Shown: positions 9,509-53,561 of the stretch, one piece after another
How positions within the stretch are numbered: position 1 is the stretch's first letter
Layout of the letters: each line of letters begins with the position of its first letter
Assembly (NCBI RefSeq): GCF_002160815.1
Contig: NZ_NFLH01000015.1
Location: 1 to 54,969, forward strand
DNA from: Massilimicrobiota sp. An134
Lineage (GTDB): Bacteria; Bacillota_I; Bacilli_A; Erysipelotrichales; Coprobacillaceae
Reading direction: 5' to 3'
DNA length: 54,969 nucleotides
Position numbers and translations under genes: made by a program
Notes under the pieces: model-generated
Told to the model about the DNA's origin: nothing
The model's database searches: none
Seen by the model: the letters and a program-made list of their open reading frames with translations, nothing else

Positions 9509-9611
9509 AGTCTTATCTCCTTTATATTGTATTTTATTCATGTTTAACTAGAAAATAAGACACCATCGTTTCATTTTCATAAGAAAGCTCCTTTCTTATT
9601 GGCATATAAAC

Positions 9612-9862
9612 AAAAAACACCTGTCCATCAAAGGACAGATGTTATAATCTGCGGTACCACCTTTATTGGTTATAAAAATAACCCACCTCATTAAAATGCC
9701 AACACATTTTTGCTTTGTAACGTAAGCTCACGTCGCAGGATACTCGTTACCTTTCCCCTTTGCCCTCATAGGTCCATTTACTTAACTGCCACTATCCAGC
9801 TTCCACCATCCTGGACTCTCTTTAAGTACATTTTCAAGTTTTATCTCCTACTCATTGGTTTG
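9612..9862 (-). promoter_or_regulatory. T-box riboswitch with Trp (TGG) specifier
   Basis: Read on the minus strand, it has stem I with GGTGGAAGC, a specifier loop with TGG at 9776-9774 followed by ACCTATGAG, the T-box core AAGGTGGTACCGC near 9665-9651, and a terminator (ACATCTGTCC / GGACAGGTGT then T-run, about 9642-9612). The flanking helix ACTTAA/TTAAGT sets the specifier register. Uncharged tRNA-Trp should block the terminator and switch on the transporter operon downstream. Confidence 0.92.
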
Positions 9863-9870
9863 TTTATATC

Positions 9871-9899
9871 AAATTATCACACCTTTATTAAATTGTCAA
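9871..9899 (-). promoter_or_regulatory. Promoter of the Trp T-box operon
   Basis: TTGACA at 9899-9894 is followed 17 bp later by TAATTT 9876-9871 (GATAAT overlaps it with a shorter spacer). It lies just upstream of stem I of the T-box. Confidence 0.7.
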
Positions 9900-9941
9900 T
9901 ATTTTTAGATAAAAAATAAATAATATCTATTTTTTTGTTAA

Positions 9942-10688
9942 TTAAATAAACAAATAGCTGTAAAAATATAAAATATATTCTCCAAAAAACAAAGAAATAA
10001 GAATTCCCACACAAAGAAAACCAGCAAATGCGATATGATGATGGCGATGTGTTTTTTTATAAAAAAGTAAATATGATGCATAGATTCCACCCAATAAAAC
10101 CGCTATCGTAAAAGCAAGTATAATCTTTATATATCCTAACATAAAGCCATTAACCATCAATAATTTGATATCCCCACCACCAAAACTATCTGGAATCCAA
10201 AAATTGAGTAATAATAATGGCATACTTATAATCAATATACCTATCAAATGTTCCCACAATGAAACATCACTATAAGGCATTAATCCTGATACAATAAATA
10301 TTTCTAAAATAATCATTTCATCAGGTATAATTTGCCATTGTCTATCTATTAATGAAATGGTTATAAAATCCATTATCAATAAAAAAAGAAGAATAGCCTT
10401 TATCACTTGGGATTCATAATAGACAAGTAAGACAAGCAAAAAACCACTCATCATTTCAAAGATAGGATAAAAAAGTGAAATGCGGTGATGACAATATCGA
10501 CATCTTCCTTTTAACATCACATAACTGACAATAGGTATTAAATCAAACCATTGTAAAGGATGCAAACAATCAAAACAAAAACTTCTTCCTTTTACAATAT
10601 CCAAACCAAGTGGCAATCGATCTTTACACACTTGAAAAAAACTTCCTATAACAGCACCCAAAATAAAAAACCATACATATAAAAACAT
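9942..10688 (-). CDS. Prepilin peptidase (type IV leader peptidase, A24)
   Basis: This membrane aspartate protease cleaves and N-methylates type IV prepilin-like proteins. It opens with LGAVIGSFFQVCKDRLPLGLD, has the two zinc-type CxxC pairs (CFDCLHPL and CRYCHHRIS), and the two catalytic Asp sites (SLIDRQWQIIPDE and SFGGGDIKLL). There are about seven or eight membrane segments. The start is ATG 10688, with AAAGGGG 8 nt upstream; earlier ATGs at 10694 and 10706 are too close to that site. No pilin or competence gene lies beside it, so the substrate is encoded elsewhere. Confidence 0.9.
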   Translation of the reverse strand: MFLYVWFFILGAVIGSFFQVCKDRLPLGLDIVKGRSFCFDCLHPLQWFDLIPIVSYVMLKGRCRYCHHRISLFYPIFEMMSGFLLVLLVYYESQVIKAILLFLLIMDFITISLIDRQWQIIPDEMIILEIFIVSGLMPYSDVSLWEHLIGILIISMPLLLLNFWIPDSFGGGDIKLLMVNGFMLGYIKIILAFTIAVLLGGIYASYLLFYKKTHRHHHIAFAGFLCVGILISLFFGEYILYFYSYLFI

Positions 10689-25763: not shown

Positions 25764-26429
25764 TTAAACAATTAAATAATCAAATCTTTCAATTTTTTCA
25801 GTTTCGGCGACCATTAAGAAATGATCATTTACACGTAAGACATGTTCCGGATTAACATAAAGTTCAATTTTCTGTGTTTCCATATCACGTTGTCCTAAAA
25901 TATTGATTCCATATTTTTTTCTTAAATCTAAAGAAGATAACGTATGTCCAACCCATGCCTGTGGTACTTTCATTTCCACTAAGCTATAATTTTCATCAAG
26001 TTCAACCAAATCAGTTATGTTCTTTCTAAGCAATGTTCGTGCGAGTCTTTCTCCCATTTCTTTTTCAGGACGAATAATACGATCAGCACCAATTTTTTCT
26101 AAGATAGATTTAAATCTTTTATTCTTAGCTTTTGCGATAATATATGGAATACCAATTTCTTTTAAATTCAAAACACCTAAAAGACTTTCTTCTAAATGAT
26201 TACCAATAGCAACAATACCAACATCAAATTCTTCGATCCCTAAATCAATCAAAAAATCTTTATCAGTAATATCTCCAATAACTGCCTTTGTAGCAAATTC
26301 TGAAACTCTTTGTACACATTCAGGGCATTTATCTACTGCCACAACCTCACAACCATACTGTGATAATGTTTTGGTAATTGTTGAACCAAAAACACCTAAC
26401 CCTAATACTACAACTTGTTTACTTTTCAT
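25764..26429 (-). CDS. ktrA: Potassium uptake regulatory subunit KtrA
   Basis: It is a cytosolic ring-forming subunit that gates KtrB using ATP/ADP. The RCK_N Rossmann domain starts VVVLGLGVFGSTITKTL, with acidic VVAVDKCPE for the ribose. An RCK_C domain from about residue 140 (LVEMKVPQAWVGHTLSSLDLRKKYGINILGQ) is where c-di-AMP binds in known homologues. The 221-residue length is normal. It follows ktrB with a 5-bp gap and shares its leader. Confidence 0.93.
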   Translation of the reverse strand: MKSKQVVVLGLGVFGSTITKTLSQYGCEVVAVDKCPECVQRVSEFATKAVIGDITDKDFLIDLGIEEFDVGIVAIGNHLEESLLGVLNLKEIGIPYIIAKAKNKRFKSILEKIGADRIIRPEKEMGERLARTLLRKNITDLVELDENYSLVEMKVPQAWVGHTLSSLDLRKKYGINILGQRDMETQKIELYVNPEHVLRVNDHFLMVAETEKIERFDYLIV

Positions 26430-26434
26430 TTTCC

Positions 26435-27835
26435 CTATCCTATCAGAACATCACCAACTGGATAAACGATGTCCTTTCCTTTCTTTTGTTTATATTTCTT
26501 TGCAAAGACTAATACCATTGTCATTGGCCCAATACGTCCAATATACATTAATATAATAATAACTATTTTTCCTATGACAGTCAAAGTTGGTGTGAGTGAT
26601 GCAGATAAACCAACTGTTCCAAATGCTGAGAAGACTTCAAAGATTAAATCAATAAAATCTGCACCTTCATTCATCGACAATATAAATAATCCCAACGAAC
26701 AAACAAAGAAACTTAATATAGCAATAGTCAATGAACGTTTCACGACCTGATCATCAATACGACGTTTAAACATTGTGACAACTTCATAACCATTCTGTAA
26801 AGAATGTAAATACATTAATGCAATGACTAAAGTAGCTGTTTTAATTCCCCCAGCTGTTCCTGCTGGTGAACCACCAATAAACATGAGAATAGACATAAAT
26901 AATTTTGTCGAATCATGTAAAGAGGCCATATCAACAGAAGCAAATCCAGCAGTTCTCGTTGTCGTAGACTGGAAGAAACTTGCTAAAATTTTATCACCCC
27001 ATGGCAATGGTCCTAATGTTCCTGGATTATTATATTCAAGGAATAAAATGACTAATGTTCCCCCTAGCAATAATGAGACTGTTGCTAAAAGAACAATTTT
27101 TGTATGAAGAGATAATGATGAGAAAAATGTCTTTATCCTAAAAAATTTAAAATTTTCTTTATAGTGACGCCAAGACATTCTTAAATCAATCCAAACAACA
27201 AATCCCAAACCTCCAGCAATAATCAAACCAGCAATCGTCAAGTTCATTAGAACATTTGTTTGATAAGGAATCAAAGAATTAGGACCAAGAATATCAAAAC
27301 CAGCATTACAGAAAGCTGAAATTGAATGCCAGAATCCATAATAAATTCCTTTCACAAGACCAAATTCAGGAACAAAAACAATACATAATAATAATGCGCC
27401 AACAATTTCAAAAAAAGCTGTATATTTAATAACTCTTTTAATATAAACGCCAATGGCAGCCATAGAATTCTGATTTAATGCTTCCTGCATAATAATTTTA
27501 TTTGTATATGTTAACCTTTTCCTTAAAGCATAAATAAACATATTCAATAAGGTCAAGAATCCCAATCCACCAATTTGAATAAGCAAAATAATAATAAGTT
27601 GTCCAATGAGTGTATATTGATCAGCGACAACAACTGGCACCAAGCCAGTTACACAAGTCGCTGATGTTGCAATAAACAAATGATCAATGTATGGAGCAAC
27701 TGCTCCTTGATTTGAAAATGGACAAGCCAATAACAAAGAACCTACCAGTATTACCATAAAAAAGCTAAAAGCAATACGTCGCATAGGTGAAAAGACTTTC
27801 TTTTTCTTTGATTTATGAAAATCAACCGTTTCCAT
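26435..27835 (-). CDS. ktrB: Potassium channel subunit KtrB (TrkH/KtrB family)
   Basis: This 466-residue membrane protein conducts K+ with Na+ dependence in known homologues. The four pore loops with their filter glycines are visible: SATCVTGLVPV, ISAFCNAGFDILG, TTTRTAGFASVD and FSAFGTVGLSASLT. A flexible gate loop follows the third (FIGGSPAGTAGGIKTAT). A basic N-terminus (SKKKKVFSPMRR) faces the cytosol. GGAGG lies before ATG 27835. The gene sits 125 nt after a leader terminator, so its expression probably depends on antitermination. Confidence 0.94.
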   Translation of the reverse strand: METVDFHKSKKKKVFSPMRRIAFSFFMVILVGSLLLACPFSNQGAVAPYIDHLFIATSATCVTGLVPVVVADQYTLIGQLIIILLIQIGGLGFLTLLNMFIYALRKRLTYTNKIIMQEALNQNSMAAIGVYIKRVIKYTAFFEIVGALLLCIVFVPEFGLVKGIYYGFWHSISAFCNAGFDILGPNSLIPYQTNVLMNLTIAGLIIAGGLGFVVWIDLRMSWRHYKENFKFFRIKTFFSSLSLHTKIVLLATVSLLLGGTLVILFLEYNNPGTLGPLPWGDKILASFFQSTTTRTAGFASVDMASLHDSTKLFMSILMFIGGSPAGTAGGIKTATLVIALMYLHSLQNGYEVVTMFKRRIDDQVVKRSLTIAILSFFVCSLGLFILSMNEGADFIDLIFEVFSAFGTVGLSASLTPTLTVIGKIVIIILMYIGRIGPMTMVLVFAKKYKQKKGKDIVYPVGDVLIG

Positions 27836-27959
27836 CTTTCTCCTCCATAAATATTAACATTTGATATAAAATATCATATATTTTTATAAAACAATTATAA
27901 AATAATCTATTTCAACCCATATCTTTTCCTATATGACAACTCCCTTCAAATCTGTTTAT

Positions 27960-28107
27960 AAAAAAACAGATTCCTAAAAGAATCTGTCAAGATATTTTAT
28001 TTTACACATATAAAGTAAAACTCTCGAATAAATAAAGCGTATTAGCTTTATGACAGACTCCACCACTTATTCGACCTCCATTGTAACACAGTTAACTTTT
28101 TTGTCAA
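27960..28107 (-). promoter_or_regulatory. Riboswitch-like leader of ktrBA, class not recognised
   Basis: On the minus strand, TTGACA 28107-28102, a 16-bp spacer and TACAAT 28085-28080 form a promoter whose start is near 28073. The RNA begins with P1 (TCGAATAA 28074-28067 with TTATTCGA 28031-28024), enclosing a 15-nt joining strand and P2 (ATAAAGC 28051-28045 with GCTTTAT 28038-28032). A terminator follows: ACAGATTC 27987-27980 with GAATCTGT 27973-27966 and a T-run. GAGTCTGTCA 28060-28051 can instead pair with TGACAGATTC 27989-27980 (ten pairs, one G-U), which removes the terminator arm. Confidence 0.72.
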
Positions 28108-43191: not shown

Positions 43192-43400
43192 TAAAAAAAG
43201 AATTCATCAAAAGGACGAATTCTCGCGGTACCACCTTTATTTATGCATTAAGCATACGCTCTTTATTGATAACGATGTTGCCACCGGCTAAACTTTTCAT
43301 TTAGCTGCTCCAAAGTGTATTCATTATAAACAATGATCTATTTCCACCAATCATAGACTCTCTATAACATCCATTTATAATTACTTGTCTTCTTCAACGC
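43192..43400 (-). promoter_or_regulatory. T-box riboswitch with Tyr (TAC) specifier
   Basis: On the minus strand, stem I (ATTATAAA with TTTATAAT) leads to GAA then TAC at 43319-43317 and ACTTTGGAG. The T-box core AAGGTGGTACCGCGAG lies near 43237-43222, and the terminator GAATTC/GAATTC with T-run spans 43224-43192. Uncharged tRNA-Tyr should allow readthrough into tyrS. Confidence 0.93.
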
Positions 43401-43408
43401 TTAAATAT

Positions 43409-53360: not shown

Positions 53361-53550
53361 AAAAAAACGCCCTATCTAAGGACGTTATTAACGCGGTACC
53401 ACCTTAGTTCATACAATGTATGCCCTCTCTGTCTTAACGCGACTCACGGTTACTTTCATAACTTCCTCCAAAGTGTCCCATAGCTTCCTCTATCTGTTTC
53501 CACCAACCACAGACTCTCTATTAGATTTTGACTATTTAATCTTCTTCAAC
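53361..53550 (-). promoter_or_regulatory. T-box riboswitch of hisS-aspS, GACAC specifier
   Basis: On the minus strand, GTTGGTGGAAACAG marks stem I. The specifier region is GGGACACTTTGGAGG with GAC at 53477-53475 and CAC at 53475-53473. The T-box core AAGGTGGTACCGCG is near 53404-53391, and the terminator (AACGTCCT with AGGGCGTT, T-run) spans 53386-53361. Aligned with the tyrS leader, GAC (Asp) falls in register; the His codon CAC overlaps by one base. Confidence 0.88.
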
Positions 53551-53561
53551 GGATTGACATC

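Follow-up and report, generated by a model that had tools for sequence, protein, structure and literature searches.

The analysed window, a 54,969-nt stretch of Massilimicrobiota sp. An134 DNA, carries a minus-strand leader between rlmD and ktrB. The TrkH-family ktrB and TrkA-type ktrA genes downstream of this leader indicated that the ktrBA label was right. Here the first-pass annotation had described a promoter directly followed by a compact two-stem RNA consisting of an 8-bp P1, a 15-nt joining strand and a 7-bp P2, and all of these parts were found where it had placed them on the minus strand:

28080–28107 (−): σ70 promoter TTGACA-16-TACAAT, immediately 5′ of P1, carrying 11 of the 12 consensus bases, with the −35 TTGACA at 28107–28102 and the −10 TACAAT at 28085–28080
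28067–28074 (−): 5′ strand of P1, TCGAATAA, pairing with 28024–28031 over 8 bp
28052–28066 (−): 15-nt J1/2 bulge, GUGGUGGAGUCUGUC / GTGGTGGAGTCTGTC, invariant in five congeners and nearly invariant in members found without sequence conditioning
28045–28051 (−): 5′ strand of P2, ATAAAGC, pairing with 28032–28038 over 7 bp
28039–28044 (−): P2 loop, UAAUAC, varying in sequence and length
28032–28038 (−): 3′ strand of P2, GCTTTAT, assigned by the covariation test
28024–28031 (−): 3′ strand of P1, TTATTCGA, assigned by the covariation test
27990–28023 (−): variable 34-nt linker from the aptamer to the terminator, from the five-congener alignment
28051–28060 (−): antiterminator strand 1, GAGUCUGUCA (= GAGTCTGTCA), mostly inside J1/2, forming a 10-nt pairing (duplex −13.1 kcal/mol)
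27980–27989 (−): antiterminator strand 2, UGACAGAUUC (= TGACAGATTC), the terminator left arm, pairing with 28060–28051
27960–27988 (−): intrinsic terminator GACAGATTCT-TTTA-GGAATCTGTT plus T tract, conserved in five species
27934–27957 (−): conserved post-terminator segment, AAACAGATTTGAAGGGAGTTGTCA, with invariant ACAGAT.TGAA.GGAGTTG.C in five species
26435–27835 (−): ktrB, TrkH/KtrB potassium uptake channel subunit (TIGR00933, 347 bits, above cut-off)
25764–26429 (−): ktrA, TrkA_N-type regulatory subunit with TrkA-family matches, starting 5 bases after ktrB

The aptamer spans 51 nt (28074–28024) and is bulged on its 5′ side only, P1 and P2 being directly stacked along the 3′ side; we propose that the J1/2 bulge is both the ligand-binding core and an antiterminator strand. 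The terminator hairpin (27988–27965) comprises 10 pairs followed by seven T residues, and the A at 28051 is shared between the 10-nt antiterminator and the first pair of P2. A search of the conserved post-terminator segment for a short leader peptide found none. This segment is complementary to the bulge and has a counterpart, TTGACAGRCYTTGARRGGRG, in members preceding P-type ATPase genes (L049, L052, L055, L056 and L057). Elsewhere in the window, three T-box leaders were located at 9628–9864, 43208–43406 and 53375–53558 (−).

Folding of the window sequence alone was mildly better than that of shuffled sequence (z = −1.38), an unremarkable result that made the single sequence weak evidence, so that the case was built on comparison. 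The minimum free energy structure of a 97-nt nascent RNA, from which the terminator left arm had just emerged, was the antiterminator fold (−24.0 kcal/mol), and that of the full-length RNA was P1/P2 plus the terminator (−27.0 kcal/mol).

The element was present upstream of ktrB in all five Massilimicrobiota genomes examined, with 45 of the 51 aptamer positions invariant among these congeners; the promoter spacer, linker and leader flanks had diverged, and the upstream gene differed in one species. With a covariance model built from the five genus sequences (R1), other genera within both the family and the order were matched strongly (E 1e-7 to 1e-11), and a further model restricted to the hairpin (R2) extended the matches to other orders of the class. 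The covariance models thereby found >90 relatives, distributed over Erysipelotrichales, other Bacilli and Clostridia. About 50 members, mostly from Oscillospiraceae and other Clostridia, were added by one scan of named genomes with the pattern RTGGTGGAGTCTGTCANA followed by the R2 filter; as this pattern fixes the core, core invariance in these members is not evidence, while their stems were not fixed. Unconditioned covariance model search of one Clostridia order, Oscillospirales, found members in 18 of 245 genomes (~7%), nearly all carrying the core GGUGGAGUCUGUCA, with variation confined to the positions just before the core and to a single GUCUGGC. Searching this order a second time returned almost solely known members. 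A promoter matching at least 9 of 12 consensus bases and ending 5–13 nt 5′ of P1 was detected in 75 of 90 members, compared to 7% of shuffled upstream sequences.

Several weak matches were set aside as chance hits of the covariance models (L058–L061, L066, L077–L085, L098–L102, L105, L123 and L124); none had the core, and they fell within coding sequence or beside unrelated terminators. One locus (L073 / G203:C14) carried back-to-back copies of the RNA at 9587–9690 (−) and 9852–9950 (+), of which one precedes ktrB and the second is followed by a 19-aa membrane-like ORF, MGWIYYIIQMLFDSTNEEH, with its own terminator. In other Bacilli orders, the members L106, L107, L096, L097 and L103 were compact; in these, P2 with the U run behind it might itself serve as the terminator, and P1 would then make use of the U run.

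The alignment of 69 members formed standard pairs in 95.8% of cells (99.5% in P2), a level somewhat inflated by fitting of the alignment to the model. Changes on both sides were seen in 12 of 15 pairs (7 of 8 in P1 and 5 of 7 in P2), and 47 further pair types were observed compared to 27.9 in shuffles. The covariation score of 0.486 exceeded the shuffled value of 0.178 and was reached by 0 of 500 shuffles, and sliding of the 3′ partners reduced pairing to 42–53%. The same direction was seen in 20 Erysipelotrichales members aligned earlier by sequence only. The covariation and the slid controls thus indicated that P1, the bulge (consensus RUGGUGGAGUCUGUC, nearly invariant) and P2 are real. Within Erysipelotrichales, P1 and P2 were conserved in sequence on both strands, a pattern that would suit recognition by an RNA-binding protein acting through attenuation or antitermination, in place of the ligand binding predicted for a riboswitch. 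However, across Clostridia the sequences of P1 and P2 vary freely while covarying, the element is sporadic over several orders, as in Oscillospirales, and no recurrent regulator gene was present among the downstream neighbours examined, making a protein target improbable.

The 10-base pairing of the terminator left arm with the joining strand, also described in the first-pass annotation, was present in the window, and its complementarity was kept across 90 members: the complementarity of the bulge to the 190 nt downstream averaged 15.4, compared to 12.76 ± 0.21 (SD; maximum 13.27) in dinucleotide shuffles. In 57 of the 87 members having a terminator-like hairpin, the best bulge complement fell in its left arm or loop. 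The antiterminator would join UCUGUCA of the bulge with UGACAGA of the arm. Compensated changes were observed in L051 (bulge GAGUCUGGC opposite arm CCAGAUUC) and in L074 (bulge GAGGCUGUC opposite arm GACAGCC). In L074 the changed bases find no partner in the terminator right arm, which argues that the compensation serves the antiterminator rather than the hairpin. The suggested mutual exclusion of terminator and antiterminator was thus borne out at the level of sequence, as a conserved alternative with compensatory changes. Five members (L106, L107, L096, L097 and L282) showed no clear bulge-arm complement, indicating that the expression platform varies. An alternative in which the terminator is constitutive, the complementarity accidental and regulation absent would agree with the unremarkable single-sequence fold; it is contradicted by the deep conservation, the covariation, the compensated antiterminator changes and the coherent set of downstream genes, and is almost certainly wrong. 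We consider the comparative evidence from five-species near-invariance, covariation and arm complementarity decisive for the element being real.

The bulge remained nearly invariant while the terminator arm tolerated variants (GACAGA, GGCAGA, GACGGG and others), and it must therefore do more than pair; to form a ligand pocket on stacked P1/P2 would be the simplest such role.

The idea of a riboswitch candidate for ktrBA was supported, though too restricted in scope: ktrBA lies downstream and the RNA class is real, but it is not specific to ktrBA and precedes many ion-transport and energy genes. The first downstream genes coded for KtrB (21 cases), membrane pyrophosphatase (18), CitMHS/NhaD-like carriers (14), PiT (9), pyruvate kinase (7), P2-ATPase (6) and DUF1538 (2), with single cases of the Na+ decarboxylase beta subunit (OAD beta), a Na+/Ca2+ exchanger, a Na/Pi cotransporter, a GltD-like protein, an ABC transporter and ATP synthase. 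A different KtrB paralogue, ~42% identical to that of the window, lay behind the RNA in several genera, and a P2-type cation ATPase in others, with TrkA-type genes after the ATPase in two of the loci examined. In other orders of the class, R2 placed the RNA before pyruvate kinase and a DUF1538 membrane protein; the ATP-synthase operon lay downstream of one marginal R2 match (E 0.019). The physiological theme of these genes was coherent across several lineages.

The P2-type ATPases of L087 (626–3436, −) and L088 (3634–4284, +) carried the Na,K-like PEGLL and IDIGTDM motifs, and a TrkA-type gene followed the ATPase gene in L088 and L090. ATPases of this type may possibly be K+/Na+ pumps linked to TrkA regulation in Erysipelotrichales.

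A simple theme of K+ dependence was considered and rejected: the downstream pyruvate kinases were of the K+-dependent type (TKGPE), but the pyrophosphatase motif GNTVKA has Lys at the K+-dependence position, which makes this enzyme look K+-independent. The pyrophosphatase was sodium-translocating by NCBIfam. The gene set also bears on a ligand other than an alkali cation, namely c-di-AMP, a nucleotide, phosphate or PPi, or pH. Ktr genes elsewhere are under c-di-AMP control, and PiT, Na_Pi, pyrophosphatase and pyruvate kinase share phosphate and energy metabolism; the known c-di-AMP class, however, gave no match, and ions better fit OAD beta, Na+/Ca2+ exchange and KtrB, so that we regard such a ligand as unlikely. 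We would accordingly rank alkali cations first (Na+, then K+), followed by c-di-AMP, nucleotides, phosphate species or pH.

The explanation that we favour, and consider likely, is a transcriptional riboswitch of a new class that senses a monovalent cation, either Na+ or K+, and probably acts here as an OFF switch, with both ligand and polarity inferred. Computation indicates that the transcript starts at P1, that the P1/P2 hairpin with its bulge folds, and that the bulge can alternatively pair with the terminator left arm. The bulge folded on P1/P2 may form a pocket for an ion (Na+ or K+ being the most probable) or for a ligand linked to ions. With ligand present, the bulge would be held and the antiterminator blocked, the terminator would fold and ktrBA would be off; with ligand scarce, the bulge would capture the terminator arm and ktrBA would be transcribed. 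Three points weigh against this explanation. The pairing of bulge and arm could coexist with P1/P2 as a pseudoknot constituting the bound, ON state, which the polarity argument ignores. An OFF switch suits repression of ktrB by K+ more than activation of exporters by Na+, although the gene list leans towards Na+. Finally, pyruvate kinase together with the K+-independent-looking pyrophosphatase motif is unexplained by one ion alone.

The same RNA class might instead sense Na+ specifically, with the bulge-arm helix as a bound-state pseudoknot in an ON switch like Na+-I, a reading consistent with the overlap with Na+-I genes (OAD beta, Na_Ca_ex, Na_Pi, CitMHS and sodium-translocating pyrophosphatase; PMC9337991). 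It would also accommodate the exact or near-exact cores at Bacillales loci, where L201, L133, L170, L329, L294 and L325 carried the same or nearly the same 13–14-nt core before CPA2, CitMHS and DUF1646 genes. However, the Bacillales loci are putative homologues, and the bulge-arm helix, flexible in sequence and length (GACAGA, GGCAGA, GACGGG), looks more like a helix that switches than like a ligand pocket, leaving the Na+-specific ON switch somewhat unlikely. At several Bacillales loci the core itself was the terminator left arm, giving the opposite polarity, and the covariance model scores were low; these leaders are possibly opposite-polarity relatives. Most Bacillales pattern matches were rejected as coding sequence (dihydrolipoyl dehydrogenase and others). 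At L312 (974–1040), a sub-threshold match to Na+-I (RF03071; 23 bits compared to a gathering cut-off of 40.5) lay ~460 nt upstream of the core-bearing leader of that Bacillales locus.

Rfam 15 (4227 families) gave no match at the window element or any member tested at gathering or permissive thresholds, in scans covering the window, Erysipelotrichales, other Bacilli, Clostridia and the Bacillales loci. The models for yybP (Mn2+), fluoride, nhaA-I/II and T-box (RF00230) had no match at the element, in agreement with the first-pass annotation, which had found no fit to ydaO, T-box, yybP or fluoride classes. The covariance model and search for relatives that it had called for yielded conservation, P1/P2 covariation and compensatory antiterminator changes, and, of the outcomes it had named against itself, lack of conservation or covariation and membership of an existing Rfam family did not come true. 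A search of openly accessible papers other than the 2017 survey of 224 motifs, on potassium and sodium riboswitches, hppA and ktrB leaders and the core sequence, found no description of the RNA; a prior one is possible, though none is in Rfam. The recent motif surveys searched described nothing with this gene set, and no K+ riboswitch was found in the literature searched. To our knowledge, few Na+ riboswitch classes are known.

The RNA thus apparently represents a broad, undescribed class of candidate transcriptional riboswitches for ion homeostasis, larger than first proposed. Since the family precedes potassium, sodium, phosphate and energy-coupling genes in gut Firmicutes, it may reveal a new bacterial route of ion sensing, and with >90 members it would give a direct handle on the balance of K+, Na+, phosphate and membrane energy in these bacteria. 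More speculatively, and with somewhat less than an even chance in our estimate, it might be the first class of riboswitch to sense K+, or else a third class for Na+ that has a new fold, and might coordinate membrane pyrophosphatase and pyruvate kinase with phosphate uptake, K+ uptake and Na+/H+ circuits in gut Firmicutes, its core being reused with opposite polarity in Bacillales as the terminator left arm. The 51-nt aptamer is small enough for in-line probing and structural work, which makes the ligand question directly testable.

Among known systems, Na+-I (DUF1646 motif, RF03071 Sodium) is likewise a small transcriptional leader RNA. Its regulon includes napA/kefB, OAD and ATP synthase (PMC9337991), and the gene sets overlap in OAD, ATP synthase, Na+/H+ antiporters and CitMHS-like carriers, with exact-core Bacillales loci before DUF1646. 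However, the published Na+-I has two separate hairpins with a passive linker between them, and its conserved bases lie at the base of P1 and in the P2 loop (PMC9337991), compared to the single stacked hairpin with a conserved 15-nt bulge described here, and the RF03071 covariance model did not match the element. The ydaO-yuaA c-di-AMP riboswitch, as reported for B. thuringiensis kdp (PMC6488665), controls Ktr/Kdp potassium uptake genes via transcription termination and would share this function with our RNA; its aptamer is much larger, and its Rfam model had no match here at gathering or permissive thresholds. The Li+ and Na+-II riboswitches (nhaA-I and nhaA-II) also lie in leaders of cation transporters and sense alkali ions (PMC9646797); our RNA matched no Rfam family. 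The nqrA-II motif (Narunsky 2024), an orphan candidate for which Na+ or a cation-gradient ligand has been proposed (PMC11109978), differs in having four stem-loops and occurring in Pasteurellaceae only.
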